Source: Halobellus clavatus
GTDB taxonomy: Archaea; Halobacteriota; Halobacteria; Halobacteriales; Haloferacaceae
DNA: 64,000 bases
Assembly (NCBI RefSeq): GCF_900107195.1
Contig: NZ_FNPB01000004.1
Span: 186,001 to 250,000 of the forward strand
Reading direction: 5' to 3'
Part shown: positions 11,212 through 31,074 of the stretch, one piece after another
Layout: every line of letters begins with the position of its first letter
Numbering within the stretch: position 1 is the first letter of the stretch
Translations under genes and position numbers: made by a program
The notes under the pieces: model-generated
What the model was told of the DNA's origin: nothing
The model's database searches: none
Seen by the model: the letters and a program-made list of their open reading frames with translations, nothing else

Positions 11212-12309
11212 CTATTCGTAAAATCCCTCTTCAGGGTACCAGTTGCGGTCGAATTCGTACTCTTCGACGAGCGACGCCCAGTTGTCCGGGAACTGGATCT
11301 GCTTCGTCACCGGCCCGCCGATCGACATCCCGATGATCGCGTTGAACGCGCCCGATCCGCCGATCGTCGCGATTTTCACCGAGTTATTGTCCTGATACTG
11401 AGATACCTGTTTGAGATGAATATCCGTGTCCTCGAACAGCTGTTCGTCCTCGAGGAGGACGGGACGACCCTCCGTTCGCATGTCTGAATTCTCGACGAGA
11501 TACGATTTGATCTGGTCCTTGCTCAGGTCCGCCTTCGCGAGTTCGTCGGCGTTGTAGGGGTTGATCGCGTGCGTGACCGTGGCGTTGAGGTCCTCGCCCG
11601 AACTGCCGCGCATCGATCGGGGAGTGTTCTCGATCATATCGCGAAGAATCTGTTCGGCGGTGTTCTCGCGGGGAACCCACTGTGACCATCCGTTCGGGCC
11701 CGCGAGGGTGATGGTGCTGTCGTCCACGTCGTAACCGTGGGTGACGTGGTAGGGTTCCCAGGGGCTGGCTTCCTCGTTCTCGCCCGCGAGCATATAGAAT
11801 TTCGCGGGGTTACCCATCACGCCCATATCCTTCTCGCCGGGGTAGATCTTCGCCGTGTTGCGGTACGCCATCCCCAGCGCGCGAGAGATCGTCTGATTCG
11901 CGTGGTAGTTGGGACCGAACGCCCCCGTCCCGCTCTCGATGTCCAGTTCGTTCCGCACCGGGCCGTTGACGATCCACTGGTAGGCCCACGACCCCGTGCT
12001 GACCGAGAACTGGATCGAGTTCGAGTCCGGGTCCGCGAGCGCCCGGGCCCCCGCCTCGAGGACCGGCAGATACGGCGGGACGCATCCGGCCATCACCGCG
12101 TTCGCCGCGAGGTCCTCGACCGTGAGCGGGTTGTCGTTGTTGCCTAACCGGCCGATGACGTGGTCCCGCGGGTGGTCCGTCCCCCGAAGCATCTCCGCGA
12201 CGCGTTCCTCTGTCGGTGGCACGACCGGGAGGCCGTCAGTCATCCCCTCCTCGTACAGCGACCGGTACAGTTCCTCGAACGACTCCGAGTTCGATGATTC
12301 ATCAGACAT
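11212..12309 (-). CDS. uncharacterised conserved protein, paralogue of the 20006 gene (UGSC-associated family)
   Basis: This 365-residue soluble protein is closely related to the one at 20006-21094. Both share MTDGLPV.PPT near the N-terminus, NAVMAGC, an identical STGSWAYQWIVNGPVR stretch, KIYPGEKDMGVMGNPAKFYM, and a C-terminal IGG..FNAI/VNAI..SIGGPVTK..FPDN block. The invariant Cys in NAVMAGC and the Gly-rich C-terminus are candidate functional sites. No known catalytic motif is visible. The other copy lies 18 bases behind a CGSC-motif UGSC-family protein, but this copy has no such partner and faces a GMC oxidoreductase instead. ATG 12309 is favoured because the region before it is a separate small reading frame and promoter. 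Confidence 0.8.
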   Translation of the reverse strand: MSDESSNSESFEELYRSLYEEGMTDGLPVVPPTEERVAEMLRGTDHPRDHVIGRLGNNDNPLTVEDLAANAVMAGCVPPYLPVLEAGARALADPDSNSIQFSVSTGSWAYQWIVNGPVRNELDIESGTGAFGPNYHANQTISRALGMAYRNTAKIYPGEKDMGVMGNPAKFYMLAGENEEASPWEPYHVTHGYDVDDSTITLAGPNGWSQWVPRENTAEQILRDMIENTPRSMRGSSGEDLNATVTHAINPYNADELAKADLSKDQIKSYLVENSDMRTEGRPVLLEDEQLFEDTDIHLKQVSQYQDNNSVKIATIGGSGAFNAIIGMSIGGPVTKQIQFPDNWASLVEEYEFDRNWYPEEGFYE

Positions 12310-12459: not shown

Positions 12460-12509
12460 GTTTGGCTCGCGGACGATACGAACCGATCGACGGGACGGAC
12501 CCGCGACAC

Positions 12510-12702
12510 CGGGGACGCAATTCCGTCTCACACTCCCCGCCGGTGTTGGTGACGCTGGCGACGGCAATCGTCTCGGCGTTCTCGTGGACGACGATCGGGC
12601 TCTTGCCGCTGAGTTCAAGCGTGACGTCGGTGACGTTGCCAGCGGCGTCCCGCGTCGGCAAACCCGCCCGACAGCAATCGGCAGGTCCCGTCCGGCGACT
12701 CT
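12510..12702 (-). pseudogene. aldehyde dehydrogenase remnant
   Basis: The minus strand encodes DVTLELSGKSPIVVHENA followed by ASVTNTGGEC, which matches the central aldehyde dehydrogenase segment (VTLELGGKSP..V...AD and the catalytic-Cys region). The intact enzyme at 23448 has VTLELGGKNPAVV...FSNTGQIC in the same place. Just upstream, in another frame, GRDLPIAVGRV resembles the preceding FTGS..VGR cofactor loop, so a frameshift seems to separate the two pieces. Only about 60 of 480 residues survive and the loop Gly and catalytic region are changed. The piece lies between the promoters of the divergent GMC gene and the 12309 gene. Confidence 0.65.
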
Positions 12703-12746
12703 GTACAAAAAATTCATTATGGATGGTTTCCTGCTGTCAGGTGATT

Positions 12747-14273
12747 ATGGCGAACACCTACGACTACGTCATCGTCGGCGCTGGGTCGGCCGGCTGCGTC
12801 CTGGTGAACCGCCTCTCGGCGGACGAGGACACCGACGTCCTGCTGCTGGAAGCCGGGAAGCCCGACGAGAAAGACGAGATTCACGTACCGACGCTGTTCC
12901 CCGGACTGATGCAGTCGGACGTGGACTGGGAGTACTGGACAGTTCCCCAGGAGGGACTCAACGGCCGCGAGGAGTACTGGCCGCGGGGCAAAACGCTCGG
13001 TGGCTCGTCGGCGATCAACGCGATGATGTACGTTCGGGGCAACCCCCACGACTACGACCGGTGGGCCGAACTCGGCAACGAGGGCTGGAGTTGGGACGAG
13101 ATGCGCCCGTACTTCAAGCGGATGGAAGACTTCGAGGGCGGCGAGTCCGAGTATCACGGCGAGGGCGGCCCACTCTGGGTCGAACAGGAGCATCCCTACG
13201 GAGACGTCACGAACGCGCTGATCGACGCCGCCGTCGAAGTCGGATTCGACCGCAACGAGAACATCAACGCCGGCCAGCAAGAAGGGATGGGACCGCTCCC
13301 GCTGACAGTCAGGGACGGGACCCGAGAGAGCACTGCGGTCTCGTACCTCCATCCGGTCCTCGACCGAGAGAACCTCGCCGCTCAGACCGGCGCGCACGTC
13401 ACGCAGATCGAGTTCGAGGGCGACACCGCCACCGGTGTCACCTACGTCCAGGACGGATCGACCGACACCGTCGACGCGGATCAGGAAGTGATCCTCTCGG
13501 CGGGTTCGATCGACTCCGTGCAGTTGCTGCTGCTCTCGGGGATCGGCCCCGCGGACGAACTTGAGGAACACGGGATCGACGTCAAGAACGACCTGCCCGG
13601 CGTCGGGAAGAACCTCCAGGATCACCTCGTCGCGTCCGCCGCGTACGAACTGCACGGCGATCCCGAGATCCAGCAGGGGGAAGTACTCTGTCAGGTCACC
13701 GGCTTCGAGCGGACCGACCCCGACCTCCCCGCGCCGGACCTCCAGTACTTCCTCGCGCGGGTCTACTTTATGCGCCACGGATTCGACAATCCCGAAGAGG
13801 GTGCCGGAATGACCCCGAGTGCGACGCTCTTACACCCCGAGAGCCGCGGCGAGATCACGCTCGCGTCCGCCGATCCCTTCGACGACCCGGTCATCGACCC
13901 GAACTATCTGGCCCACGAAGCGGACCTGGACACACTCGTCGAGGGGGTCAAGCGGACCCGTCAGATCGGCCACGCGGACGCGCTTGAAGAGTACCGCGGC
14001 GATGAAATCTGGCCCGAAGGCGACGTCGAGAACGACGCGGACCTGCGTGAGCACGTCCGCGAGACGGCCCAGACGATCTATCACCCCGTCGGGACCTGCA
14101 AGATGGGCGACGACGAGATGGCCGTCGTCGACGACGAGCTTCGGGTCCACGGGATGAACGACCTGCGGGTCGTCGACGCGTCGGTGATGCCGGAGATCAC
14201 GAGCGGCAACACGAACGCCCCTACCATCGCCATCGCCGAGCGGGCCGCTGACATCATCCGCGGTCTCGACTAG
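12747..14273 (+). CDS. GMC-family FAD-dependent oxidoreductase (choline dehydrogenase-like), copy 1
   Basis: The 508-residue protein opens with the FAD-binding GAGSAGC loop near residue 11. It has GMC signature 1 (WPRGKTLGGSSAINAMMYVR, near 80), signature 2 (GSIDSVQLLLLSGIGPA, near 255) and the active-site YHPVGTCKMG near 452. It closes with the conserved NTNAPTIAIAER helix. GMC enzymes oxidise primary alcohols to aldehydes with FAD. ATG 12747 is chosen because it opens directly into the FAD-binding strand; the upstream open frame crosses the ALDH remnant. Two further GMC paralogues occur at 16163 and 38952. Choline is only one of many possible substrates. Confidence 0.9.
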   Translation: MANTYDYVIVGAGSAGCVLVNRLSADEDTDVLLLEAGKPDEKDEIHVPTLFPGLMQSDVDWEYWTVPQEGLNGREEYWPRGKTLGGSSAINAMMYVRGNPHDYDRWAELGNEGWSWDEMRPYFKRMEDFEGGESEYHGEGGPLWVEQEHPYGDVTNALIDAAVEVGFDRNENINAGQQEGMGPLPLTVRDGTRESTAVSYLHPVLDRENLAAQTGAHVTQIEFEGDTATGVTYVQDGSTDTVDADQEVILSAGSIDSVQLLLLSGIGPADELEEHGIDVKNDLPGVGKNLQDHLVASAAYELHGDPEIQQGEVLCQVTGFERTDPDLPAPDLQYFLARVYFMRHGFDNPEEGAGMTPSATLLHPESRGEITLASADPFDDPVIDPNYLAHEADLDTLVEGVKRTRQIGHADALEEYRGDEIWPEGDVENDADLREHVRETAQTIYHPVGTCKMGDDEMAVVDDELRVHGMNDLRVVDASVMPEITSGNTNAPTIAIAERAADIIRGLD

Positions 14274-14892: not shown

Positions 14893-15011
14893 GCACTCGG
14901 GGACACGCCAGCGATCCACCCGTTCTCTGATTGCGATCCACCCGCAGTGAGTACCACTGGACCGGGACAGCAGCGTCAGTCGCGAAAACTATCCTCTTTG
15001 ATCACAACAAA

Positions 15012-15017
15012 TTTATT
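15012..15017 (+). promoter_or_regulatory. TATA-like box of the IclR gene
   Basis: TTTATT in an AT-rich stretch lies about 27 bases before ATG 15042, matching leaderless spacing. Confidence 0.5.
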
Positions 15018-15041
15018 CGTATCGGGCTGTCACACGAAGAT

Positions 15042-15830
15042 ATGCCGGCTCAACACGGCGGACGACGGATCGAGGCGGTCGACAAGAGCCTCGACATCCT
15101 GCGGTTCATCGCTGAAGAGGGCGATACGACCGTGTCGGTGATCGCCGAGCACGTGGGGCTCGCCCCCGGCACCGTCCACACGCACCTGTCGACGCTCCGG
15201 GCGCACGGGTTCATTGAGCAGGTGGACGGTCGATACCAACTCGGGATGGAGTTCATCCCGTTCAGCGAGCGCGTGCGGAATCAGACGCCGCTCTACCGAG
15301 CCGGAAAAGACGAAGTCGACAAACTGGCCCACCAGTACGACGCAGTCGCGCACCTGGCCACGGAGTACAACGGGAAGATTCTCATTCTTCACGAGACCTT
15401 CGGCGAAGACGCCGTGGGCAAACAGATCCACATCGAGAAGCGTGACGAGCCGCAGACGCATATGCACTGTACGGCGGCGGGGAAAGCGATCCTCGCACAT
15501 CTGCCTGAAGAGCGCGTCACCGAGATCATCAACGAGAAGGGACTGCCCTCGTACACGTCCCACACGATCACCGACGAAGCGGCACTCGCCGACGAACTCG
15601 CCCGGATCCGCGAACAGCGCTTCGCCGTCAACAACGAGGAGGTCGTCCACGGGAACAAGGGGATCGGGGCCCCCGTCATCTACGACAACGGCGACGTCGC
15701 CGGTGCGATCAGTATCTCCGGGCCGGCGAACAACTGGCGCGACGCATCGATCGAAGAGGAACTGATCGAGGCGGTGATCCGCTCGGCAAACAACGCCGAG
15801 ATCGAGATCTACACACAAACTGAGGCGTGA
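15042..15830 (+). CDS. IclR-family transcriptional regulator 1
   Basis: The 262-residue protein has an N-terminal winged helix-turn-helix (about 10-65: VDKSLDILRFIAEEG, then LAPGTVHTHLSTLRAHGFIE). The IclR effector-binding domain (about 80-258) includes HCTAAGKAILAHLPEERV and GIGAPVIYDNGDVAGAISIS. IclR proteins sense small metabolites, commonly aromatic or carboxylic acids, and regulate adjacent catabolic genes. It stands between two GMC oxidoreductase genes and is the likely regulator of the 12-24 kb region. A palindrome starts right at its stop codon (15830). Its closest relative here is the second IclR at 60554. Confidence 0.92.
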   Translation: MPAQHGGRRIEAVDKSLDILRFIAEEGDTTVSVIAEHVGLAPGTVHTHLSTLRAHGFIEQVDGRYQLGMEFIPFSERVRNQTPLYRAGKDEVDKLAHQYDAVAHLATEYNGKILILHETFGEDAVGKQIHIEKRDEPQTHMHCTAAGKAILAHLPEERVTEIINEKGLPSYTSHTITDEAALADELARIREQRFAVNNEEVVHGNKGIGAPVIYDNGDVAGAISISGPANNWRDASIEEELIEAVIRSANNAEIEIYTQTEA

Positions 15831-15846: not shown

Positions 15847-16162
15847 ACTCAGCGATGAGAACACCAAGAGAATAACTCGTGTACTCCTGTTAGCACACGG
15901 TTGAACCGCCGACCGAGACGACTTTGTTTCAGGATCTTTCACGAGAGAAGTTGTCAAGACCCAAGATTCGCCGCTTCTGTCCAACACTAGTCACCTTGTC
16001 ACGGATTTACGTGCCACAATATTCTTTTTGAGAGGGTCAAATACCTGCTCGCCGGAGTGCTTCAGCGAGTCGGGTACTCGCCCCGTCCGACCTGCGAGTC
16101 CGGCGACTCTCCCGCGGTGAGCGAAAGATATTAGTTAGTGTTTTCATACACGATAGAACGTG
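15847..16162. other. intergenic region upstream of GMC copy 2
   Basis: About 316 bases without a gene. It holds the GGGTCAAATAC half-site (16034-16044), an ATTCTTTTTGAG T-rich run near 16021 that could end IclR transcription, and AT-rich sequence before 16163 that should contain the GMC promoter. No coding remnant was seen. Confidence 0.4.
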
Positions 16163-17695
16163 ATGTACGATTATATCATCGTCGGCGGCGGTGCGGCCGG
16201 GTGTACACTCGCACACCGGCTGACGGCGGACCGATCTGTCGACGTCTTACTCCTCGAATCGGGGAATCCCGAAGAGGACCGCGATGCAGTGAAAGATCCG
16301 ACCCGCGTGTGGGACCTGCTGGGGTCAGACCTCGATTGGGGCTTCGAGGTCGAACCACAGCCAGGACTGAACGGCCGGTCTATCGCCTGGCCCCGCGGGA
16401 AGGCGCTCGGCGGATCGACCGTGATCAACGGAATGGCGTACGTCCGCGGACACGCCTACGACTTCGACAACTGGGCGGATCTCGGCAACGACGGGTGGAG
16501 TTACGACGACCTGCTCCCGTACTTCAAAAAGTCCGAGAACCTGACTGCGGACGGCGACGCGGCGTACCACGGCACGGACGGGCCGCTCACCGTCTCGCGC
16601 GGGACCGAGCCGAGCGAACTCGACGAGATGCTGGTCGAGGCCGCCGAGGAAGTCGGTTTCGAGAAGAATATGGACTTCAACGGGGAACAGCAGTCCGGCG
16701 TCGGGTACTACCACTCGACGATCGAAGACGGCCATCGACACAGCACTGCGGCGGCATTCATCAAACCGATCCTGGACCGCGACAACCTGGACATCAAGAC
16801 CGGCGCCCACGTCACCGAACTGACCTTCAGCGGCGACACCGCCACCGGTGTCGTCTACAACGAGGGCTGGACGAGTGACCAGGCGACGGTCGCCGAAGAC
16901 GGCGAAGTGATCGTCGCGGCCGGCGCGATCCAGTCCCCGCAACTGCTGATGCTCTCGGGAATCGGTCCCGCCGACCATCTCAAAGACCACGACATCGACG
17001 TCAAAGTCGACCTGCCGGGCGTCGGGCAGAACCTCCAGGACCACCTCCGCGTCAACATCGCTTTCGAGACGACGGGCCCAGTCCCAACGCGGACCGACCG
17101 GGCGGGTCGCGGCACCCGATACGACCGCGTGAGCGTCGGTGCGTTCAAGCGCTCTGCCCCGGACCTCCCGGCGCCAGACATGCAGTTCGGGCTGGCCCCG
17201 GGTCTCTCCCCAGAGGAACCCGAGACCGGTTACGGGATCACCGTCCTCCCGCTGCGCCCGACGAGCACCGGCGAGGTCAGGCTCACGTCCGACGATCCCT
17301 ACGACCACCCGGAGATCGATCCCAACTACCTCGACACCCAGAAGGACGTCGACGATATAATCACCTGTCTCCGGTGGGCCCGTCGGATCGGGGAGGCCGA
17401 CGCGCTCGCGGAGATCCGCGACGAGGAACACCTGCCCGGTTCGGAGGCGGAGTCCGACGAAGAGCTCCTCGAGTACGCCCGGAACACCGCCGTCACCGGG
17501 TACCACGCGACCTGTACGGCCAAGATGGGCGACGACGACATGGCCGTCGTCGACGACGAACTCCGCGTCCACGGGCTGAACAACCTCCGCGTGATCGACG
17601 CCTCGGTGATGCCGGAGATCACGAGCGGCAACACGAACGCCCCCACTATCGCCATCGCCGAGAAGGGCGCTGATCTACTCAAGGAGGCACAGTAG
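16163..17695 (+). CDS. GMC-family FAD-dependent oxidoreductase, copy 2
   Basis: This 510-residue enzyme has the FAD loop GGGAAGC near residue 9, the WPRGKALGGSTVINGMAYVR signature near 76 and the C-terminal NTNAPTIAIAEK helix. The active-site stretch is YHATCTAKMG where the other two copies have YHPVGTCKMG. The His is kept but the PVG turn is replaced, so substrate fit may differ. ATG 16163 is used; a GTG directly before it adds one residue. It resembles the copy at 38952 more than the one at 12747, for instance in the QSPQLL..SGIGPADHL..HDIDV region and the C-terminal KGADLLKEA. Confidence 0.9.
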   Translation: MYDYIIVGGGAAGCTLAHRLTADRSVDVLLLESGNPEEDRDAVKDPTRVWDLLGSDLDWGFEVEPQPGLNGRSIAWPRGKALGGSTVINGMAYVRGHAYDFDNWADLGNDGWSYDDLLPYFKKSENLTADGDAAYHGTDGPLTVSRGTEPSELDEMLVEAAEEVGFEKNMDFNGEQQSGVGYYHSTIEDGHRHSTAAAFIKPILDRDNLDIKTGAHVTELTFSGDTATGVVYNEGWTSDQATVAEDGEVIVAAGAIQSPQLLMLSGIGPADHLKDHDIDVKVDLPGVGQNLQDHLRVNIAFETTGPVPTRTDRAGRGTRYDRVSVGAFKRSAPDLPAPDMQFGLAPGLSPEEPETGYGITVLPLRPTSTGEVRLTSDDPYDHPEIDPNYLDTQKDVDDIITCLRWARRIGEADALAEIRDEEHLPGSEAESDEELLEYARNTAVTGYHATCTAKMGDDDMAVVDDELRVHGLNNLRVIDASVMPEITSGNTNAPTIAIAEKGADLLKEAQ

Positions 17696-17861: not shown

Positions 17862-19196
17862 TCACTCCTCTCGCTCTTTGAGGAGTTTGGTCTTGTACTC
17901 GCCGGCCGGGAGGTCGTCGACGTCGACCACCGTCGGATCGATGCGTGCCTTCAACTGCTCGCGAACTTCGGTGATAGCCTCGTCGACGAGTTCGGCCTCG
18001 TCGCGGCTGCTGCCCGGTTCTCGGGCGATCTCGACCGGGATCGGTGTCTCGAAATTGACCGTGCCTTCCTCGGGGAGAATCACCCGGAGTCGGGGCGCGA
18101 TGCCCTCGACGTCGGAGATGACATCGCGGATGGCCGACGGGAAGACGTTCATTCCTTTGTAGATCAGCATATCGTCGGCACGGCCCGCGACCTGGATCTT
18201 CGGGGCGGTGCGGCCGCAGTCGCACTCGGTGTCGATCACTTCGACGTAGTCGCCGGATCGGAATCGGAGGAGCGGGGTCGCCTCCCGCCGAAGGTGCGTG
18301 TAGACGAGTTCGCCCTCCGCCCCGGGTTCGAACGGCTTCGCCTCGCCCGTCTCGGGGTCGATCAGTTCGGGATGGACGAACCCCTGCGCGTGGAAGTGCA
18401 TCCCGTTCTCCTCCTCGCACTCGGCCCACATACTGCCGAGAACGTCGCCGAGGCCCATCGCCTCCCGGACGAGATCGGCGTTCCAGACGTCGTAGAACTC
18501 GGCGCGGATTTCGGGGTTCGCGATGCCGGGTGCGGCCCCGCCGATGACCTTCGTGAACCCGAAGTCGTCGGGCGCGACGCCGACGACGTCTTCGGCGTTC
18601 TCAGAGAGGTACCGGATGTGTGAGGTCGTCGTCCACAGAATATCGGGCTGGACGTCGAGCGCGACCGAGAGCAGCCGTTCGGTGCTCTCTCCGCCGGCGG
18701 GCACCACGTTCGCGCCGAGTTTGGTCAGGCTCTCGAAGTAGGGGGTCCCGCCCGTGATCATCGTCTGCCCCGCGCCGAACAGGACCGTATCCGCCGGTCG
18801 GACGCCGACCGTGTAGAAGGATCGCTTCTGCACCGTGTTCCAGTTCCGGCGATCCTGCGTGGTCAGGCCGAAGTAGGTCGGCTTGCCGGTCGTCCCCGAG
18901 GAGGAGATCGTCCGGTTGAGCGCGGACTTCGGCGCGGCCTGGTGCTCGCCCAGCGGTTTCGCGGGGACGGTGTCAGTCTGTGAGTCCCGCTCGTCCTGCT
19001 TCGTGGTGAACGGGACCTCCCGGAGCGCTTCCAGGGAGGTGATGTCGTCGGGATCGATGTCCCACTCGCGGAACCGACGGCGATAGAAGTCGGAATGCTC
19101 GCGGAGATACTCGATCTGCTCGGGCAGCAGTCGCTCGTGATCGGCACAGACGTCCCCCCACGGACGCGTCTCGATCGGGTCGTAAACATCCGCCAT
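17862..19196 (-). CDS. phenylacetate-CoA ligase-like AMP-forming enzyme
   Basis: The 444-residue protein is the size of PaaK enzymes, shorter than typical acyl-CoA synthetases. It has the AMP-binding P-loop SSSGTTGKPTYFGLT near 108, MGLGDVLGSMWAECEE near 254, FRSGDYVEVIDTECDCGRT near 320 and DDMLIYKGMNVFPSAI near 350. These match the PaaK layout, including the Cys-containing CxCGRT strand. It would activate an aromatic or aryl-acetic acid to its CoA thioester. ATG 19196 is preferred over a start eight codons upstream. The gene is divergent from the CGSC gene; both may belong to the same oxidative pathway. Confidence 0.85.
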   Translation of the reverse strand: MADVYDPIETRPWGDVCADHERLLPEQIEYLREHSDFYRRRFREWDIDPDDITSLEALREVPFTTKQDERDSQTDTVPAKPLGEHQAAPKSALNRTISSSGTTGKPTYFGLTTQDRRNWNTVQKRSFYTVGVRPADTVLFGAGQTMITGGTPYFESLTKLGANVVPAGGESTERLLSVALDVQPDILWTTTSHIRYLSENAEDVVGVAPDDFGFTKVIGGAAPGIANPEIRAEFYDVWNADLVREAMGLGDVLGSMWAECEEENGMHFHAQGFVHPELIDPETGEAKPFEPGAEGELVYTHLRREATPLLRFRSGDYVEVIDTECDCGRTAPKIQVAGRADDMLIYKGMNVFPSAIRDVISDVEGIAPRLRVILPEEGTVNFETPIPVEIAREPGSSRDEAELVDEAITEVREQLKARIDPTVVDVDDLPAGEYKTKLLKEREE

Positions 19197-19383
19197 ACAC
19201 CAGCGCTTAGCGAACCACATATTTTAATATAACGGACGGCAGGTCCCACGACGACCTCGGCCTCTCAGTGGTGCCGCTCGACACAGCGGGCCGGTAAAAC
19301 CCTGAGGACCCGAAATCCAGTCCGTTCGCCCGAGTGGTTCGGAATCCGTTCCGTCGCTGTCCAGGATTTCACTCCGCCAACAC

Positions 19384-19417: not shown

Positions 19418-19987
19418 ATGGGACTGATCACTCCCGGATCGGAGTCAGACGAGACCGAGCAACTACCGCTGGTCCCGCGAGTCGATTCGCTGGACGGCAA
19501 GACCATCGGCCTGTACGATAACGGGAAACCGGCAGCCGAACCGCTTCTCACCGCCGTGAAGGAGAAACTCGCGGACCGCTACCCCGACGCCGAGTTCACC
19601 TGGTACCACGTCGAACACCTGAACCAGATCAAGAACGACGACGAGCAGGACGCTGTCAAGGAGTGGGCCGCAGACGTCGACACCGCGATCGGCGCGATCG
19701 GCGACTGTGGGTCCTGTACGAAGTTCCTGGCGTGGGGCATCGAACTGATCGAGGACGCCGGGACCCCCGGCGTCGGCCTCATCGACGAGGGCTTCGAGCT
19801 CGACTACCAGTCGAACGCGATCGAACGGGGCCGGGCGTTGCGGTACAAGAAGACGCCGGTCCGCTGTGAGACGACCGACCTCGACCGCGTCCGCGACGAA
19901 GTGTCCGAAGACGTCGTCGACGGGATCGTCGACGAGTTGACCCGCGAACTGAACGAGAAGGAACGCGCGGACCCGGTGCCGCAGTAA
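19418..19987 (+). CDS. UGSC-family protein, cysteine (CGSC) form
   Basis: The 189-residue soluble protein has the sequence GAIGDCGSCTKF, with C97-G-S-C100. This is the position where the UGSC (seleno)protein family has selenocysteine or cysteine. Here residue 97 is encoded by TGT, so it is an ordinary thiol pair. The preceding DTAIGAIGDC strand and the following LAWGIELIEDAGTPGVGLI fit a flavodoxin- or thioredoxin-like alpha/beta fold with the thiols at a strand end. The family's reaction is unknown; a thiol-redox or thiol-nucleophile role is likely. The downstream gene at 20006, 18 bases away, is almost certainly its co-transcribed partner. Confidence 0.75.
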   Translation: MGLITPGSESDETEQLPLVPRVDSLDGKTIGLYDNGKPAAEPLLTAVKEKLADRYPDAEFTWYHVEHLNQIKNDDEQDAVKEWAADVDTAIGAIGDCGSCTKFLAWGIELIEDAGTPGVGLIDEGFELDYQSNAIERGRALRYKKTPVRCETTDLDRVRDEVSEDVVDGIVDELTRELNEKERADPVPQ

Positions 19988-20005
19988 CTCCCCTCCCTAT
20001 CCTCT

Positions 20006-21094
20006 ATGTCCGAACAATCAGAAACCGAGCAGTCGCTCGACGAGATCAACAAGTCGCTGTACAGCGAAGGAATGACCGACGGCTTGCCGGTCATCCCGCC
20101 GACCGACGAGCGGGTCGAAGAGATGCTCCGCGGGATCGACCGTCCCCGCGACGACGTGGTCGCTCGCCTCGGGAACAACGAAAACGCCCTCACCGTCGAG
20201 ACGCTCGCGGCGAATGCGGTGATGGCCGGCTGTCTGCCGACGTATATGCCGGTTCTGGAAGCGGGCGTGCGCGCGCTCGCCGATCCGGATTCGAACTCGA
20301 TCCAGTTCTCGGTCAGCACGGGGTCGTGGGCCTATCAGTGGATCGTCAACGGCCCGGTTCGGGAGAAACTCGACATCGAGAGCAGTTCGGGCGCGTTCGG
20401 CCCGAGCTTCCACGCGAACCAGACGATCGCCCGTGCGCTGGGGATGGCGTACCGCAACACGGCGAAGATCTACCCCGGCGAGAAGGACATGGGCGTGATG
20501 GGTAACCCCGCGAAATTCTATATGCTGGCGGCCGAGAACGAGGAAGCCAGTCCCTGGGAGCCCTACCACGTCACCCACGGTTACGACGCGGACGACAGCA
20601 CCATCTCGCTGGCGGGCCCGAACAGCTGGGTCCAGTGGCTCCCCAGCGAGAACGAGGGCGAACACGTGCTTCGCGGAATGATCCGGAACACGCCCGAGTC
20701 GATGCGCGCGAGTTCCGGCGAGGACCTCAATGCGACGATCACCCACGTGATCAACCCCTACAACGCCGAGGAACTCGAGAAAGAGGACCTCACTAAAGAA
20801 GAGATCAAGGAGTACATCGTCGAGAACTCCTACCGGACGACAGACGAGTACGCGCCCGCCCGTCACTCCGGCGACGGCATCCCGCCGCGACAGGTCAAGC
20901 AGTATCAGGACACCGACGCCGTGAAAGTGGCCTGCATCGGCGGCCCCGGCCGGGTCAACGCCATCTTCGGCACTTCGATCGGGGGGCCGGTCACGAAGAA
21001 GATCCACTTCCCCGACAACTTCGACGAACTCCTGGAGGAGTACGCCGACGACGTCGAGCGGAACTGGGTTCCCACCGAGGGCTTCTACGAGTAG
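20006..21094 (+). CDS. uncharacterised conserved protein paired with the CGSC protein
   Basis: This 362-residue protein is the paralogue of the 11212-12309 product and shares all its blocks: MTDGLPVIPPT, NAVMAGC, STGSWAYQWIVNGPVR, GEKDMGVMGNPAKFYM and IGGPGRVNAIFGTSIGGPVT. It differs mainly at about 280-300, where it carries a short DEYAPARHSGDGIPPRQ insert. It follows the CGSC gene by 18 bases, so the two form an operon and probably one enzyme system. No cofactor motif is clear; the invariant Cys in NAVMAGC is a candidate active-site thiol. Confidence 0.8.
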   Translation: MSEQSETEQSLDEINKSLYSEGMTDGLPVIPPTDERVEEMLRGIDRPRDDVVARLGNNENALTVETLAANAVMAGCLPTYMPVLEAGVRALADPDSNSIQFSVSTGSWAYQWIVNGPVREKLDIESSSGAFGPSFHANQTIARALGMAYRNTAKIYPGEKDMGVMGNPAKFYMLAAENEEASPWEPYHVTHGYDADDSTISLAGPNSWVQWLPSENEGEHVLRGMIRNTPESMRASSGEDLNATITHVINPYNAEELEKEDLTKEEIKEYIVENSYRTTDEYAPARHSGDGIPPRQVKQYQDTDAVKVACIGGPGRVNAIFGTSIGGPVTKKIHFPDNFDELLEEYADDVERNWVPTEGFYE

Positions 21095-21224: not shown

Positions 21225-22262
21225 CTACGGGCAGACGAGGATCTTTCGCTCCTCGCTCTCGTCGTCGGTCAGCGCGTCGAAGCCGTCCGCGACGATGTCG
21301 TCGAGGCCGACTCGCGAGGTCACGTACTTCTCGGCGTCGAGGTCGCCGTTCTCGAGCTGTCGGATGACGACGCCGTACTCCTCGGTCAGTCGCGGCCCGA
21401 CCAGATGCGAGGTCGACCCGCCGACGGTACGCTGATCCTGGACGAGCAGTTGCGGTTCGAATTCCGCAGGCCCGCTGAACACGCCGATAACGGTCGTGTG
21501 GCCGTCTGCACGCGTCGATTCGACCGCCTGCGTCAGCGTGTTCTCGTGGCCGACGGCCTCGAAGGCGACGTCGGCGCCGCGGCCCGTCTCCTCGTGAATC
21601 CGCTCGACGGGGTCCTCCTCGGTCGGATCGATCAGGACGTCTGCACCGAAGTCCGCAGCCACCTCGCGCCGAGAGTCCTGCGGTTCCGAGACGTAGATCG
21701 GCCCGCCGCCGGCGGCCTTCGCCGAGCGGATCGCGCCGAGACCGATCGGCCCCGCGCCGACGACGGCGACGCTGTCGCCGACGCCGAGCGGCGACTGGCG
21801 AACCGCGTGCAGACCGACGCTGACCGGTTGGGCGATCGCGGCGTCCGCCGGCGAGACACCGTCGGGAAGCGGCACGGCGTTATCGGCGCTCTCGACCACC
21901 TGTTCGGCGTAGCCGCCCGGACGGGCCGACGTGGCGTTCAGGTCGCGACACAGATTGTATTTGCCCTCCTCACAGCACCAGCACTCGCCGCACGGGGTGT
22001 GTGGGCCGAGCACGACCTCGGTTCCGACCGCTAGGTCGACACCCTCACCGGTTGCAGCGATCGTCCCGCCGATCTCGTGACCGAGCGTCTGCGGGAGGTC
22101 TTCGTCGTCGAAGAAGTCGTCGGTGTGTTGATAAAAGTGGAGGTCAGATCCGCAGATCCCGCAGGCCGCGACGTCGACGAGGACTTCACCCTCGCCGGGT
22201 GTCGGTGCTTCGACGTCGTCGATACGAATGTCTTCCTCACCGTAGAGTCTGGCTGCTTTCAC
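21225..22262 (-). CDS. zinc-dependent alcohol dehydrogenase (MDR family), copy 1
   Basis: The 345-residue protein has the catalytic-zinc region CGICGSDLHFY near 34, GHEIGG near 62, and the structural-zinc cysteines CGECWCCEEGKYNLC near 91-105. The NAD(P) loop GAGPIGLGAIRSAKAAGGG follows near 172. It fits the sorbitol/threonine/2,3-butanediol dehydrogenase branch. The enzyme oxidises a secondary or polyol alcohol with NAD(P). It is divergent from the thioredoxin-reductase-like gene at 22376. A second copy of the family occurs at 40626, beside another GMC gene. Confidence 0.9.
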   Translation of the reverse strand: MKAARLYGEEDIRIDDVEAPTPGEGEVLVDVAACGICGSDLHFYQHTDDFFDDEDLPQTLGHEIGGTIAATGEGVDLAVGTEVVLGPHTPCGECWCCEEGKYNLCRDLNATSARPGGYAEQVVESADNAVPLPDGVSPADAAIAQPVSVGLHAVRQSPLGVGDSVAVVGAGPIGLGAIRSAKAAGGGPIYVSEPQDSRREVAADFGADVLIDPTEEDPVERIHEETGRGADVAFEAVGHENTLTQAVESTRADGHTTVIGVFSGPAEFEPQLLVQDQRTVGGSTSHLVGPRLTEEYGVVIRQLENGDLDAEKYVTSRVGLDDIVADGFDALTDDESEERKILVCP

Positions 22263-22375: not shown

Positions 22376-23305
22376 GTGACACACGACCTCATTATCGTCG
22401 GAACCGGCCCTGCCGGTCTGACCGCGGGCGCGTACGCGGGACGCAGCGGACTCGACGTCCTGTTCTTCGAGCGAGAATCGATCGGCGGCGATCTCGTCAA
22501 CCGCCACGAGATCCGGTCTTACCCGGGGTTCCCGGACGGCGTCTCCGGGACGGAACTCCGTTCGAAGATGGTCGAGGCGGCCGAGGCCTACGACCCTGAC
22601 GTCGAACTCGATACTGTCGAACAGATCGACCCCGGTGCGGACGGTGCCCCGCACGTGCTGCACACCGAGGGCGGCGAGTACGAAGCCCACGCGGTCATCC
22701 TCTCGCCGGGCGGCACCGACCAGCGCCTCGGCGTCCCCGGCGAGGAGACCTACGAAGGCCGGGGCATCTTCCACTGTGCCACCTGCGACGGCCCCCTGTA
22801 TCGGGACGAGCGCATCGCCGTCGTCGGCGGGCGGAACCACGCCGTCATCGACGCGGTGTTCCTGACCGAGTACGCCAGCGAGGTGGTGGTGCTCGACTCC
22901 GAACCGGAACTCGACGCGGACGCGACGATCGTCGCGGAAGCCGAGTCCCACCCGGACGTCGAGATCCACACGGAGACGACCGTCACCGAGTTCGTCGGCG
23001 AGGACGGCCTCCTCGAGGGCGTGGCAGTCGAGCGCGGGGCGTCGGGGGAGACCGAGACGCTCGACGTCGGCGGCGTCAACGTCAACGTCGGCTCCGTACC
23101 GAACACCGACTTCCTCGAGGGGACGCTGGACCTCGATACGGAGGGACGTATCGTCGTCGACAACCGGATGGAGACCACCGTGCCGGGAATCTACGCCGCT
23201 GGCGACGCGCGGCAGGGGAGCCCACACGAGATCGCCGCGGCCGTCGGCGACGGCACGACGGCGATCATGGCGGCCAAAGATCACATCGCCCGGTCCGCAG
23301 AGTGA
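22376..23305 (+). CDS. thioredoxin reductase-like FAD oxidoreductase
   Basis: The 309-residue flavoprotein has the FAD loop GTGPAGLTAGAYAGRSG near residue 9, the redox-active HCATCDGP motif near 135 (CxxC), and the FAD-binding TTVPGIYAAGD near 270. The NADPH loop is VVGGRNHAV instead of the usual GxGxxA, so coenzyme use may be weak or altered. It starts with GTG 22376; no ATG is available before the FAD strand. It could reduce a thioredoxin-like partner; the nearby CGSC protein is one candidate. It is divergent from the zinc ADH and upstream of the ALDH operator. Confidence 0.85.
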   Translation: MTHDLIIVGTGPAGLTAGAYAGRSGLDVLFFERESIGGDLVNRHEIRSYPGFPDGVSGTELRSKMVEAAEAYDPDVELDTVEQIDPGADGAPHVLHTEGGEYEAHAVILSPGGTDQRLGVPGEETYEGRGIFHCATCDGPLYRDERIAVVGGRNHAVIDAVFLTEYASEVVVLDSEPELDADATIVAEAESHPDVEIHTETTVTEFVGEDGLLEGVAVERGASGETETLDVGGVNVNVGSVPNTDFLEGTLDLDTEGRIVVDNRMETTVPGIYAAGDARQGSPHEIAAAVGDGTTAIMAAKDHIARSAE

Positions 23306-23447: not shown

Positions 23448-24881
23448 ATGTCACTCGCAACCCAAGAACGGTATCCCCTGTTCATCGACGGAGAGCACGT
23501 AGAGCCATCGAGCGAGGAGTACCGCGAGACGATCGACCCCGCGACCGAGGAACCGATCGCACAGTACGCCGTGGCGTCGGCCGCGGACGTCGACCGAGCC
23601 GTGACGGCGGCCCAGCGCGCCCAGACCGAGTGGGCGGAGACGGACGCCGACGAGCGCGCTCAGGTCCTCGGCGACGTCGCCGACGCGATTCGGGAGAACG
23701 CCGACCGCCTCGCGGAGATCGAAACCCGGGATCAGGGCAAGCCGATCGGCTACGCCCAGGGGATGATCCAGGGGGCGGCGTCGACGTTCGACTTCTATGC
23801 GGGTGCGACGGACAAGATCGAGGGGGAGAGCTTCCCGGTCGGCGAGGACGGCGTCAACTTCACGCTGAAGGAACCCTACGGCGTGAGCGCGCAGATCATC
23901 CCGTGGAACACGCCGCTCAACCTCACCGCACAGGGCATCGCTCCGGCGCTCGCCGCCGGCAACGCGGTCGTCGTGAAACCCGCGCCGACGACGCCGCTGC
24001 CGCCGCTGTACCTCTCGGAAGTGTGCCAAGAGGCGGGCGTTCCGGACGGACTGATCAACGTCGTCAACGGCGGTGCGGAACCCGGGGCCGCGCTGTCGGG
24101 CCACGATGGGGTCGACACCATCTCGTTCACCGGCAGCGTCCCGACCGGACAGGCCGTGATGGAATCCGCAGCCAAGAATATCACTCCGGTGACGCTCGAA
24201 CTCGGCGGGAAGAACCCCGCCGTCGTGATGCCCGACGCCGACCTCGAGGAGGCAGTCACCGCGATCCAGATCGGGATCTTCAGCAACACCGGACAGATCT
24301 GTGCGGCCGCCGACCGGGCGATCGTCCACGAGGACATCTACGACGAGTTCGTCGAGATGATCGTCGAACGCGCCGAGGGATACGAACTCGGGGCGGGGAT
24401 GGACGATCCGGATATGGGTCCCCTCAACCACGAGGCCCACTTAGCGGAGGTACTGGAGTACATCGAGACCGGGATCGACGAGGGGGCGACGCTGGAGACT
24501 GGCGGTGACGCACCCGACCGGGACGGGTACTTCGTCGAACCGACGGTGTTCTCCGACGTCGACAACGGGATGACGATCGCCCAAGAGGAGATCTTCGGCC
24601 CGGTCCTCTGTGTGATTCCGTTCTCCGATCAGGCGGAGGCGATCGAGATCGCCAACGACATCGAACTCGGCCTCACAAGCGGTGTGTTCACGCAGGATCT
24701 CGACACCGCGATGGAGATGACCAAGGCCATCGAGGCCGGTACGGTGTACGTGAATCAGTGGTTCGGCGGGTCGACCGCCTCGCCGTTCGGCGGCTACAAG
24801 AAGAGCGGCATCGGTCGCGAGATGGGAATGTACGCCTTCGAGTCGCACCTGCAGACCAAGACCGTCTCGATCGATCTCTGA
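23448..24881 (+). CDS. NAD(P)-dependent aldehyde dehydrogenase
   Basis: The 477-residue enzyme has the full family layout. PWNTPLNLTAQGIAPALAAG lies near 158 and SFTGSVPTGQAVM near 227. The general-base Glu is in TLELGGKNP near 250 and the catalytic Cys in SNTGQICAAADR near 285. The C-terminal motif is SPFGGYKKSGIGREMG. It oxidises an aldehyde to the acid, a natural next step after the GMC and zinc alcohol dehydrogenases nearby. A decayed relative lies at 12510-12702. The promoter region carries a conspicuous tandem palindrome. Confidence 0.92.
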   Translation: MSLATQERYPLFIDGEHVEPSSEEYRETIDPATEEPIAQYAVASAADVDRAVTAAQRAQTEWAETDADERAQVLGDVADAIRENADRLAEIETRDQGKPIGYAQGMIQGAASTFDFYAGATDKIEGESFPVGEDGVNFTLKEPYGVSAQIIPWNTPLNLTAQGIAPALAAGNAVVVKPAPTTPLPPLYLSEVCQEAGVPDGLINVVNGGAEPGAALSGHDGVDTISFTGSVPTGQAVMESAAKNITPVTLELGGKNPAVVMPDADLEEAVTAIQIGIFSNTGQICAAADRAIVHEDIYDEFVEMIVERAEGYELGAGMDDPDMGPLNHEAHLAEVLEYIETGIDEGATLETGGDAPDRDGYFVEPTVFSDVDNGMTIAQEEIFGPVLCVIPFSDQAEAIEIANDIELGLTSGVFTQDLDTAMEMTKAIEAGTVYVNQWFGGSTASPFGGYKKSGIGREMGMYAFESHLQTKTVSIDL

Positions 24882-26621: not shown

Positions 26622-26670
26622 CCCGTCTGTAGAGAAAAATTATTACCAACCCGGCCGAAAGCAGTTGTCG

Positions 26671-27519
26671 ATGGCCTATCAGGGATACGCGGACTACTTC
26701 GAGAAACCGGTAATCATCAGTGTCGCTCCCACGGGCGGGATGCACGGCAAGGAGGCGAACCCGAACCTCCCCGAACAACCCGAAGAGATCGCCGCTGACG
26801 TCCGGGCGTGCGAGGAAGCCGGCGCGTCGATCGTCCACGTTCACGCACGCGACGAGAACGGCGACCCGACCAAGGATCCGGCGAAGTTCCAGGAACTCCG
26901 CGAGATCATCGACGAGCGGTGTGACGACATCATCGTGAACTTCACCACCGGCGGCGGCAACGACCGCGAGGGACGCATCCGCCCGGTACTGGAGACCGAA
27001 CCGACACCCGACCTCGCGACGGTCGACCTCGGCCCGCTCAACACCCGCGGTGACACGGTCGCGATAAACACCCGCGTGCAGAACGAGGAGTACGTCCGCC
27101 GGATGCACGACCACAACGTCAAGCCCGAACTCGAGGTGTTCGGTCCCGGGCACCTCACAGAGGTGCACCACCTCGTCGACGAGGAGATGCTCGAAGAGCC
27201 GTTCTGGACCACGCTGATCCTCGGGATGCAGACGGGGACGATTCCGGAGCCGCGAAATCTGATCAATCTGATCGACAACCTCCCGGACGGAGCGGAGTGG
27301 CAGTGTATGGCGATCGGTCGCCACCAACTGCCGCTCACCACGATGGCGATGATCCTCGGCGGCCACGTCCGCGTGGGGATGGAGGACAACGTCTACTTCC
27401 GGAAGGGCGAACTCGTCGAGAGCAACGCACAACTGGTCGAGCGCACTGCCGCGATCGCCGACCAGCTTGACCGCCCGATCGCCTCGACCGAAGAGACCCG
27501 AGAGATGCTGAACCTCTGA
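26671..27519 (+). CDS. beta-keto acid cleavage enzyme (BKACE, DUF849 family)
   Basis: The 282-residue TIM-barrel protein has the zinc-binding HVHAR motif (H56, H58) after VAPTGGMHGK at 18-27, and the C-terminal GGHVRVGMEDN with E238, the third ligand. These are the hallmarks of the family of 3-keto-5-aminohexanoate cleavage enzyme. Members condense a beta-keto acid with acetyl-CoA to give acetoacetate and a new acyl-CoA. ATG 26671 is used; a TTG two codons earlier is possible. An AAATTATT box lies about 30 bases upstream. It stands alone, and the keto-acid substrate is not evident. Confidence 0.88.
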   Translation: MAYQGYADYFEKPVIISVAPTGGMHGKEANPNLPEQPEEIAADVRACEEAGASIVHVHARDENGDPTKDPAKFQELREIIDERCDDIIVNFTTGGGNDREGRIRPVLETEPTPDLATVDLGPLNTRGDTVAINTRVQNEEYVRRMHDHNVKPELEVFGPGHLTEVHHLVDEEMLEEPFWTTLILGMQTGTIPEPRNLINLIDNLPDGAEWQCMAIGRHQLPLTTMAMILGGHVRVGMEDNVYFRKGELVESNAQLVERTAAIADQLDRPIASTEETREMLNL

Positions 27520-27942: not shown

Positions 27943-28926
27943 CTATTCGCCCTCGATGGTGATGCGCGGGTCGATGATGGTGTAGAAGATGTCGACCAGG
28001 AAGTTCCCAGCCACGATCCAGATGGCGATGATGAGGAACATAAACTGGATGACCGGCGTGTCGCGCGCGAACACCGAGGTGAGCAACAGTTGTCCAATAC
28101 CGGGCCAGTTGAAGACGATCTCGATGAGGACCAGTCCGCTGATGGAGGTGGCGGTCACCGCCGGCAGGACCGTGATGACCGGCAGGGAGGCGTGTTCCAT
28201 CACGTGCCGGAACCGGGTCCACCTACCGAGGCCCAGGAGCCGCTGATAGACGGCGAACTCCTGGTTGCGGACCTCGACGACGCTCCCCCGCATCACCAGC
28301 GTGGGGTAGTACATATACTTGATAACGACCGTGACGAACGGCAGCGTGTAGTGGTACCAGAAGCTCTCGGTGAGGTATATCTGCCATCCGGGGTTGTTGG
28401 TCACGACCTCGATCGACGCGATACTGCCTGATGGGAACCAACCCAGGGCCGACGAGAAGATAGCGATCAGCAGGATGCCGATGAAGAAGTCCGGCGTCGT
28501 CCCGATGATGTTCGGCGGGATGATCCCGTACTTCTCGAGAGTGCTCCCGGGGTTGGTTCCGAGCAGGGCGCCGTACAGCGAGCCGATGACGAAGGCCGTC
28601 AGGACGCCGGGCAGGGCCAGGATCATCGAGTTGCGCAGCGCGGGCGCGACGACGTCGATGACCGGCTTGCTGAACTGTCGGGACATCCCGGCGTTTCCGG
28701 TGAGCATATTGCCCATCCACGTCAGGTACTGGATGTAGATGGGTTCATCGAGGCCCCACGCCTCGCGGACCGCCTCGACCTGTTCTGGCGACGCCCCCTG
28801 CTGGAGGAGGAGCGTCGCGTAGTCTCCCGGCATCAACCGGAAGGAGAAGAACAGGAACGTGGCGATGGCGAACACCAGCAGTATCGACACCACCATCCGC
28901 CTGGCGTAGTAGTAGAGTTGACTCAT
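27943..28926 (-). CDS. ABC transporter permease, DppB/OppB type
   Basis: The 327-residue membrane protein has the DppB layout: an N-terminal helix, a periplasmic segment with the MPGDYATLLLQQGAS region, then five further helices. The EAA-like cytoplasmic loop YQRLLGLGRWTRFRHVMEHA lies near 240 and VLIEIVFNWPGIGQLL near 275. It forms the channel with the DppC-type partner at 31075. Its start overlaps the stop of the ATPase gene by four bases (28923-28926), so it is translated after it. This puts DppB last in the operon, not first as usual. Confidence 0.9.
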   Translation of the reverse strand: MSQLYYYARRMVVSILLVFAIATFLFFSFRLMPGDYATLLLQQGASPEQVEAVREAWGLDEPIYIQYLTWMGNMLTGNAGMSRQFSKPVIDVVAPALRNSMILALPGVLTAFVIGSLYGALLGTNPGSTLEKYGIIPPNIIGTTPDFFIGILLIAIFSSALGWFPSGSIASIEVVTNNPGWQIYLTESFWYHYTLPFVTVVIKYMYYPTLVMRGSVVEVRNQEFAVYQRLLGLGRWTRFRHVMEHASLPVITVLPAVTATSISGLVLIEIVFNWPGIGQLLLTSVFARDTPVIQFMFLIIAIWIVAGNFLVDIFYTIIDPRITIEGE

Positions 28927-31073
28927 CGCTGCTCACCCCCGTCGCTGATGGCGGCCGCAGGCGCGTCGGCGACCTTCTCGACCTCGGCGTACTCCTCGTG
29001 GTCGTAGTGAAGGTGGCAGGCCGTCTGGTGGTCGTCGCCGTCGACGTCGACGTAGGCCGGTTTCGTGTCGCAGATGTCCATCCGGTCGGGACACCGGTCC
29101 TTGAACCGACAACCCCCGGGGAGGTCCGTCGCATCGCCCGGCGTTCCGGGCAGTTCCGCCCACTCCCGCTTGTGGTGCGGGTCGGGCACTGGGATGGCCT
29201 GCAACAGCGACCTGGTGTAGGGGTGCTTGGCCTCGTTGAGGAGTTCCATCGTCGGCGCGCTCTCGACCAGGCGGCCGAGGTACATCACGTTGACCCGGTC
29301 ACAGACGTACGAGACCGTCGAGAGGTCGTGAGAGATGTACAACATCGATACGCCGTACTCGTTGGTCAGGTCGTTGAGCAGGTCGAGGACCGACGCCTGG
29401 GTCGACACGTCGAGCATCGACACCGGCTCGTCGGCCAGGATGACGTCCGGTTCGAGGATGAGCGCGCGGGCGATGGCGACTCGCTGTTTCTCACCCCCGG
29501 AGAGCTGTGACTCGCTCCGGTCGATGTACTGCTCGGCGGGCGTGAGCCGCACCTGTTCGAGGATGTCCAGGACCCGTTCCTCGCTGCGCTCCATATTGTG
29601 GATGCGCAGGGGCTCCATCAGCGTCTCCCGGACCGTGAAGTGCGGATTGAGGGTGTTGAAGGGGTCCTGGAGGATGATCTGGACCCGCCGGCGGAACTCC
29701 TTCCAGTCGCTCTTATCGAACTCGGAGACCGGGTCGCCATCGAACAGTATCTCGCCGTCGGTGGGGGGGTACTTCCCCATAATCGTCTGGAGCAGCGTCG
29801 ACTTCCCACAGCCACTCTCACCGATGACGCCTTGGATCTGGTTGCTCTTCAGTTCGAGGTCGACTCCGTCGACGGCCCGGACCGGTTCGTCCTCCTCGCC
29901 GAAGAATCGGGACTTGATGCTGTCGATGATGTTGGTCGACTGATCGAAGTGCTTGTGGAGGCCGTCCAGTTCGAGGACGGTCTCTTCGTCACCGCCCCGG
30001 TCGGCGTCCGCCGAGGCGCCCTTCGCGATTGGGTTCTCGCCCGCGGCCCCGCCCGTCTGATCGCGCTCGCTGAGGTATTCAGCGGCGAGTTCTTCCATCT
30101 CGTCGCTCCGGATGCAGGCGACCTCGTGGTCATCGTCGTTGTCGGGCACGTCTTCGAGGGGCGGTGCCCCCTCCCAGCATTCACGTTCCGCCCACGGGCA
30201 GCGGTCCGCGAACGTACAGAAATCGACCTCTTCCTCCTGAAGCGAGGGGGGAGTCCCCTCGATGCCTTCGAGTTTCCGATTGGGGTACCGGATGTCGGGG
30301 AACGCCCGCTGGAGGAGCGTCGTGTAGGGGTGACGGGACTCGTCGAAGAGGGCCTCTGTCGATCCCTGCTCGGCGATCTGTCCGCCGTGCATCACCGCCA
30401 TCGAGTTACACATCTCGAAGACGACGGCGATGTCGTGGGTGATGAACAGCAGGCTGAAGTCCCGTATCTCCCGCAGTTCGTCGAGGTGTTTGAGGAACTG
30501 GTCCTGCATAATCACGTCGAGCGCCGTCGTGGGCTCGTCCGCGATGATCATCGAGGGTTCGAGCAGGAGCGAGAAGGCGATGATGGCCCGCTGTTTCATC
30601 CCGCCGGAGAACTGGTGGGGGTAGTCGTGGACCCGCGATTCGGGGAGGCCGACGACGTCGAACAGCTCTTTGAGCTTGTTGACGGCCTTCTCCTCCGACC
30701 AGTCGGTGTGTGCCTCCGCGACCTCGATGGCCTGCTCGCTGATGCGCGCGAGGGGATTGAGGCTGTTCATCGCCGACTGGGGAATCACGGCGATCTCCTT
30801 CCAGCGTATCTTCTCGTTGTACTCCTTCTCGGAGAGGTCTTGGATCTCCTCGCCGCGGTACTTGACCGTCCCGTCGGTGATCCCCCCGTTGGCGTCCAGC
30901 GAGTTCGTGACCGCCTGTGCGAGCGTCGACTTCCCGCAGCCGCTCTCTCCGACCAGCCCGAAGTACTCGTTGGGGTCGATGCTGATCGAAGCGTCCGTGA
31001 CCGCGCGGAGATCGCCGCTGTTCGTCTGATACGTGATGTCTAGGCCTTCGATCTCGAGGAGTGGTTCCGTCAT
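28923..31073 (-). CDS. ABC transporter with two fused ATPase domains (DppD-DppF type)
   Basis: This 716-residue protein contains two complete nucleotide-binding domains. The first has Walker A GESGCGKST at 42-50, signature FSGGMKQR and Walker B IIADEPTTALD. The second has Walker A GESGCGKST near 418, LSGGEKQR and ILADEPVSMLD. Each half ends in the oligopeptide-family extension with a Cys cluster: CTFADRCPWAEREC...AC, and CRFKDRCPDRMDIC...AC. Separate DppD and DppF genes are the norm, so this is a fusion. ATG 31073 is preferred because it lies one base after the upstream stop; a GTG three codons earlier is possible. It energises import of the peptide-like solute. Confidence 0.9.
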   Translation of the reverse strand: MTEPLLEIEGLDITYQTNSGDLRAVTDASISIDPNEYFGLVGESGCGKSTLAQAVTNSLDANGGITDGTVKYRGEEIQDLSEKEYNEKIRWKEIAVIPQSAMNSLNPLARISEQAIEVAEAHTDWSEEKAVNKLKELFDVVGLPESRVHDYPHQFSGGMKQRAIIAFSLLLEPSMIIADEPTTALDVIMQDQFLKHLDELREIRDFSLLFITHDIAVVFEMCNSMAVMHGGQIAEQGSTEALFDESRHPYTTLLQRAFPDIRYPNRKLEGIEGTPPSLQEEEVDFCTFADRCPWAERECWEGAPPLEDVPDNDDDHEVACIRSDEMEELAAEYLSERDQTGGAAGENPIAKGASADADRGGDEETVLELDGLHKHFDQSTNIIDSIKSRFFGEEDEPVRAVDGVDLELKSNQIQGVIGESGCGKSTLLQTIMGKYPPTDGEILFDGDPVSEFDKSDWKEFRRRVQIILQDPFNTLNPHFTVRETLMEPLRIHNMERSEERVLDILEQVRLTPAEQYIDRSESQLSGGEKQRVAIARALILEPDVILADEPVSMLDVSTQASVLDLLNDLTNEYGVSMLYISHDLSTVSYVCDRVNVMYLGRLVESAPTMELLNEAKHPYTRSLLQAIPVPDPHHKREWAELPGTPGDATDLPGGCRFKDRCPDRMDICDTKPAYVDVDGDDHQTACHLHYDHEEYAEVEKVADAPAAAISDGGEQR

Positions 31074-31074
31074 A

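Follow-up and report, generated by a model that had tools for sequence, protein, structure and literature searches.

Gene Content of the Locus

The window, which is the whole stretch of 64,000 nucleotides of Halobellus clavatus contig NZ_FNPB01000004.1 that was analyzed, harbors a gene for a UGSC-family protein followed by a gene for a 362-residue partner, here called PART, together with the other features listed in Table 1. The UGSC stop codon is separated from the ATG of PART by 18 bases (19988-20005). Both ORFs, this spacing and the CGSC motif had been noted in an initial annotation of the DNA, and the coordinates and the motif codons (TGT GGG TCC TGT) agree with it; the first position is Cys (TGT), without selenocysteine (Sec) in the window member. 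The pair had also been described as set among alcohol and aldehyde oxidizing enzymes and a thioredoxin-reductase-like protein, and a GMC oxidoreductase, a Zn alcohol dehydrogenase, an aldehyde dehydrogenase and a TrxB-like protein with CATC were indeed identified.

Table 1. Features of the window, with positions counted from its first letter.
Feature	Position	Strand	Basis or remark
Second PART paralogue, 73% identical	11212..12309	-	not mentioned in the initial annotation
Second GMC oxidoreductase ORF, true start inside	12462..14273	+	similar to the GMC protein at 16160
IclR-type regulator	14931..15830	+	profile match
GMC oxidoreductase (choline dehydrogenase-like)	16160..17695	+	Pfam and NCBIfam match
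PaaK-like AMP-forming CoA ligase, divergent from the pair	17862..19220	-	Pfam and NCBIfam match
UGSC-family protein, Cys form (CGSC), 189 aa	19418..19987	+	PF24696, 91 bits
CGSC motif, residues 97-100 (Sec position of the family), predicted catalytic thiol	19706..19717	+	aligned to GrdB UGTC
PART, 362-residue partner, unnamed family	20006..21094	+	ORF; alignment; Pfam/NCBIfam scans
NAVMAGC stretch of PART, with Cys76	20213..20233	+	Cys76 in 72/75 homologues
Zn-dependent alcohol dehydrogenase-like protein	21225..22262	-	profile match
Thioredoxin-reductase-like protein with CATC	22376..23305	+	TIGR01292, 288 bits; CATCD
Aldehyde dehydrogenase	23448..24881	+	Pfam and NCBIfam match
Beta-keto acid cleavage enzyme (BKACE)	26665..27519	+	profile match
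Oligopeptide-type ABC importer (two permeases, double ATPase, family-5 binding protein)	27943..34920	-	ORF with weak thioredoxin-like match between

The UGSC Protein and Its Family

The window UGSC protein passed the PF24696 model, whose cut-off is 25 bits, and scored 68.3 bits against the equivalog model NF041046 (UGSC_fam), below the cut-off of 125, so that it is an outlying member of the family. It shares the (U/C)GSC motif with the family covered by these two models, but it differs in carrying Cys rather than Sec and in being encoded by a gene of its own beside the partner, unfused. The first motif position is Cys or Sec in 50 of 57 UGSC proteins and neither in the other seven, six of which read DMGTS. 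The DMGTS sequences form a branch of UGSC-PART fusions (L021, L023 and L085-L088) which have lost CxxC and kept Cys76 of PART; L021 and L023 are found beside aconitase X (AcnX) and DUF126, and L085-L088 beside FAD oxidoreductases, two of them also with TRAP transporter genes.

The structure model of the UGSC domain predicts alternating strands and helices in a Rossmann-like alpha/beta arrangement, with residues about 21-180 mostly at pLDDT 70-95 and the motif placed where the helix following strand 3 begins, and its fold matches in the PDB were generic, of a common alpha/beta fold. A thioredoxin-like fold was proposed for UGSC in the relevant part of the 2008 selenoproteome survey (PMC2398784), against which this predicted Rossmann-like model speaks without being decisive. 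That UGSC acts as a thioredoxin-like redox protein, in line with that suggestion, agrees with the UxxC/CxxC motif and the TrxB neighbors; nevertheless, the domain is predicted to alternate strands and helices in the Rossmann manner, and the catabolic clusters, the transporters and the several paralogues per genome better fit substrate-specific enzymes, so we regard this alternative as improbable.

Pairing and Fusion Across Genomes

The UGSC family, its Sec and its fusion with an unnamed domain have been known since 2008, and in the section concerned the survey of that year ranks UGSC among the most abundant aquatic selenoproteins, with 255 sequences from GOS (PMC2398784), while a 2026 review, in its passage on the family, places UGSC with proteins of largely uncharacterized function (PMC13188914). 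As the survey describes its UGSC/Unknown_1 fusion, the same selenoprotein is fused to one conserved domain, and this Unknown_1 is very probably PART (PMC2398784).

A survey of co-occurrence had been set beforehand as the refuting test for the pairing, and it did not refute it, returning UGSC in 15 of 292 halobacterial genomes and PART in the identical 15, with the other 277 carrying neither, as well as fusion of the two in bacteria. Each of the 16 halobacterial UGSC genes has a PART neighbor in the same orientation, no more than 200 bases away. If the two were independent, the chance of identical genome sets would be about 2e-25 by our own arithmetic, a figure that is weakened by relatedness. 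In Halobacteria the pair is scattered over 11 of 77 genera, a patchy pattern like that of a mobile catabolic cassette, and several carriers are large plasmids. PART also exists without UGSC, namely at L072 in genome G222 and at L025, whose plasmid has no UGSC, and PART relatives were found in plasmid records from Pseudomonadota, Actinomycetota and Bacillota. Scans of IMG/VR revealed no relative.

PART was searched for throughout the Halobacteria set, and in the Bacillota phylum at the fetched loci. In the sample of this phylum, PF24696 matched 46 times, in 20 of 398 genomes; a single in-frame TGA is present in 31 of these matches, and 43 belong to open frames 536 residues long or longer. PART adjoins UGSC at all 20 fetched loci (L073-L092). 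To judge from these frames, UGSC and PART of Bacillota are usually fused, often with an in-frame TGA, the putative Sec codon, at the UGSC position. At L009-L011, the frame runs from the UGSC domain through a TGA at the first motif position and then into PART. Hairpins downstream of the UGA were folded in seven sequences, with z-scores from +0.43 to -2.26 relative to shuffles; none was convincing and the L078 stretch began off the TGA, so no SECIS element is claimed.

A total of 57 UGSC-PART pairs were tabulated, leaving out the duplicate loci L057, L061-L064 and L068 and the hits with a profile score ≤60, a filter which also dropped UGSC of L083, L084, L091 and L092, though UGSC adjoins PART there. 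The gap is ≤119 bases in 56 of the pairs and 383 bases in one. PART lies downstream of UGSC in 53 pairs and upstream in four (L016, L020, L022 and L026), so the pair stays together although the gene order flips. The "same open frame" column of the tabulation reads through TGA, so that some pairs with an ordinary TGA stop between them, among them L007, L015, L016, L020 and L065, are listed as one frame; the column was not used as a fusion count. The distances of UGSC and PART are correlated at 0.94 (56 pairs) and 0.98 (22 pairs), values which are not counted as evidence since they also reflect shared ancestry.

Relationship of UGSC to GrdB and PrdB

When 21 UGSC sequences (alignment A2) were compared with 21 full-length GrdB sequences, with TGA read through, hhalign gave 95.5% (E 1.3e-8, 71 columns), with the UGSC motif falling on the UGTC of GrdB, and the score of 66.4 stands against ≤21.6 for 30 column shuffles and 19.6 for the reversed profile. 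The value was 94.2% (E 1.1e-7) against a single GrdB, 95.4% without the GrdB of L074, and 75.3% or 88.0% with four or ten residues at the motif masked. The similarity centers on the Sec loop and the next strand, survives masking of the motif, and spans only about 70 columns. The NCBIfam GrdB model TIGR01917 matches eight of the 21 UGSC members (best 2.1e-6) and the PrdB model five (best 0.011), and in the reverse search one GrdB matches NF041046 at 5.8e-5. These profile comparisons support well that the UGSC domain is a distant relative of the GrdB selenocysteine domain. The glycine and proline reductases are selenium enzymes that cleave recalcitrant carbon bonds.

The relation was hidden because both the Pfam GrdB model PF07355, which stops just before the Sec codon, and the GrdB profile of a first hhalign comparison, which gave 0.3%, end at that codon. 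In the portions of the open-licence PMC literature that treat both families, no link between UGSC and GrdB is drawn; PrdB is homologous to GrdB according to the pertinent part of the 2026 review (PMC13188914).

For the window protein, the link to GrdB is transitive, through the family, since the seven window-type haloarchaeal sequences alone gave only a weak 33.7% (E 4e-4) against GrdB, and the window protein showed no match to TIGR01917, TIGR01918 or TIGR04483 up to E 1. Its motif context reads CGSCTKF, in which the third Cys of UxxCxxC is missing. Two DMGTS sequences gave 4.4% against GrdB. The GrdB-like protein of L074 (5140-6204, minus strand) itself reads UGTS, not UGTC, at the Sec motif past its in-frame TGA.

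Several differences set UGSC-PART apart from the known systems. The C-terminal Sec domain of GrdB (PF07355, TIGR01917/TIGR01918), the selenoprotein B of glycine, sarcosine and betaine reductase, aligns with UGSC, but UGSC is without the N-terminal half of GrdB, has UxxC instead of UxxCxxC and comes without GrdE. D-proline reductase (PrdB/PrdA, TIGR04483/TIGR04480) likewise combines a short Sec protein with a larger partner; however, PART is not recognizably PrdA, and a pyruvoyl proprotein is not evident in UGSC-PART. The trait in common with fluoroacetate reductase is a Grd-like B component that, in the portion of the source describing it, is proposed to cut a C-X bond (PMC10838667), though FarB and FarE are homologues of GrdB and GrdE, unlike PART. 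The PF09338 model (GrdE/PrdA) matches none of the 292 halobacterial genomes, while 42 of 119 genomes from a Bacillota phylum do contain a match, and the haloarchaeal pair must therefore do without GrdE/PrdA.

Sequence and Structure of PART

That the 362-residue protein is uncharacterized holds, as no Pfam or NCBIfam family was matched by the window protein or by any of the 26 members of alignment A1, and its sequence gave no credible match in the PDB. By hhalign, no similarity of PART to GrdE (PF09338 relatives) or GrdB was seen (0.1-0.4%). The NAVMAGC stretch had been called invariant, which is not the case, since Cys76 is Cys in 72 and Ala in three of the 75 sequences with a letter there. 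The residues without variation are G26 and P32 (75/75) and G116 and E177 (76/76), and R143 is nearly invariant. In each of the seven pairs in which UGSC is without the first Cys/Sec, PART retains Cys76, and the three PART with Ala76 are paired with a UGSC that has its Cys/Sec, so that a disulfide between Cys76 and Cys97 is not obligatory.

The structure model of PART reached a pLDDT of 63 and a pTM of 0.69. When its fold was searched, Foldseek returned nothing below E 0.59 and the VIA Z-scores stayed ≤4.1, a null which is uninformative rather than a sign of a new fold. The model of a fused UGSC-PART is weak in PART, and its overall pTM of 0.44 is too poor for placing both active sites. In the VIA search this fused model matched best, at Z 11.3 and with an rmsd of 4.6 across 140 residues, to a chain from the complex that activates methyl-coenzyme M reductase, as might be anticipated if the pair served a different enzyme of the cluster as a maturation or activation factor and were not itself catabolic. 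With the next, unrelated VIA row at Z 10.1, the match is not decisive, and no single client enzyme is common to all loci; we give this explanation little chance.

Association with Thioredoxin Reductase

The initial annotation had suggested that the thioredoxin-reductase-like neighbor could keep the thiols reduced, and a nearby TrxB does recur across distant lineages. Of the 41 loci whose flanks extend for 4.5 kb or more in either direction, 18 have a TrxB-like gene within 6 kb of UGSC, always with CxxCD, and the other 23 have none; since the loci are related to one another, the 18 are not independent events. The linked loci belong to haloarchaea (two types), Variovorax (two), Roseovarius, Arthrobacter (with trxA), Neorhizobium and two Bacillota genomes, and at the Bacillota locus L074 genes for TrxA, TrxB, GrdB, a GrdE-like protein and UGSC(Sec)-PART follow one another on one strand, in a run that continues with URO-D. 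The window TrxB-like protein scored below the TIGR01292 cut-off of 343 bits, as did the best match of the genome (335 bits); this 3.75 Mb genome has only two strong TrxB matches, and the window copy is the second best. Within the ABC importer cluster, an ORF at 32113-32823 (minus strand) weakly resembles thioredoxins, at 19.9 bits and under the cut-off, and is a possible candidate for the thioredoxin of UGSC-PART.

Proposed Enzyme and Reaction

The partnership of UGSC and PART, as read from genome comparisons, is well supported. The two-component thiol enzyme envisaged at the outset draws support from the conserved pairing and the fusion, and we infer that the two proteins would form one enzyme. 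The relation to GrdB and PrdB suggests a specific chemistry for this thiol enzyme, which goes beyond the earlier view. Our main reading, to which we assign a probability of roughly one half, is that UGSC and PART are the halves of one Cys/Sec-dependent reductase akin to the B components of glycine and D-proline reductase, and by analogy with these the reaction would be a thioredoxin-linked cleavage of a C-X bond.

Haloarchaea are mostly aerobic, which is set against the parallel with the anaerobic Grd and Prd enzymes. The known enzymes of both kinds are anaerobic according to the part of the source that treats them, which counts against the reductase reading; the same source describes that glycine reductase takes its electrons from thioredoxin and that its Sec forms a carboxymethyl selenoether (PMC10298544). 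In fluoroacetate reducers, the GrdB/GrdE-like FarB/FarE are proposed for C-F cleavage in the section devoted to them (PMC10838667).

In the proposed mechanism, UGSC residue 97, where its helix begins, would attack as a thiolate or selenolate an activated carbon in a small organic substrate bound where UGSC and PART meet, and the leaving group (an amine, a halide or similar) would be expelled to give a thio- or selenoether. A second attack, by Cys100 or a different thiol, would then release the reduced product and leave a disulfide, which thioredoxin and the neighboring TrxB would reduce. The assignment of Cys/Sec97 as nucleophile and of Cys100 as the likely resolving thiol follows from homology to GrdB. 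PART, with its invariant E177 and nearly invariant Cys76 and R143, would supply the substrate site in place of GrdE/PrdA, and the product in the window may feed the alcohol, aldehyde and CoA-ligase steps of the catabolic cluster.

A thiol-dependent isomerase, racemase or lyase, in which a general Rossmann-like domain with a catalytic Cys works without redox chemistry and TrxB merely keeps it reduced, is a less likely explanation, at about half the weight we give the reductase. It is consistent with the neighbors across loci, most of which act in small-acid catabolism (CoA transferases, CitE-like lyase, BKACE and AcnX), with the predicted common alpha/beta fold of UGSC, and with the existence of the DMGTS branch without the CxxC pair. 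The reductase is favored over it by the persistence of the GrdB similarity on the Sec loop and following strand after masking, by the frequent Sec and the UxxC pair, which favor redox chemistry, and by the recurrence of TrxB at the loci. The neighborhoods provided no clue to the substrate, as they differ too much between lineages.

Somewhat more tentatively than the reductase itself, UGSC-PART may be viewed as a third branch of glycine/proline-reductase chemistry beside Grd and Prd, that is, a two-domain Cys/Sec C-X reductase without GrdE/PrdA or pyruvoyl, which would have radiated into many paralogues and whose Cys form would have moved into mostly aerobic salt-loving archaea. As far as our searches of the open-licence PMC literature show, three points are new: the relation to GrdB, the near-obligate partnership with a defined PART, and the occurrence in haloarchaea of a Cys form with TrxB. 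The link to GrdB and the defined partner lead to a concrete hypothesis, namely which C-N, C-halogen or similar bond UGSC-PART cuts, and a long-orphaned selenoprotein family thereby gains its first testable chemistry. The haloarchaeal Cys form would be the easiest to express and to knock out because no selenocysteine machinery is needed.

Plasmid-Borne and Multiplied Copies

On a plasmid of Paracoccus ferrooxidans (L018, 7387-7956), the UGSC selenoprotein is annotated as two hypothetical proteins, split at the in-frame TGA, with selB located about 4 kb beyond the split gene. A frame of Sec-UGSC and PART was observed in Acidovorax sp. T1 (L019, 7416-8951), carried by a conjugative plasmid of the IncP group with IS1071 and IS91-like transposases nearby, and no paper describing the host of this plasmid as a degrader was found in the open-licence PMC literature.

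Locus L073 (G604:C1:366500-386000) contains four UGSC-PART units and an extra PART within 13 kb around a SelB-like gene, and thus has the predicted make-up of a selenoprotein cluster with its own elongation factor. The 2.3-Mb genome of the Bacillota MAG G003 has ten UGSC matches, nine with an in-frame TGA, and these copies are a large paralogue radiation. PART-UGSC-PART triplets were observed at L005, L006, L007, L012, L013, L015 and L027, and in the tree the PARTs of the L015/L027 type cluster apart from the window type, which suggests that separate duplications may lie behind the triplet types.
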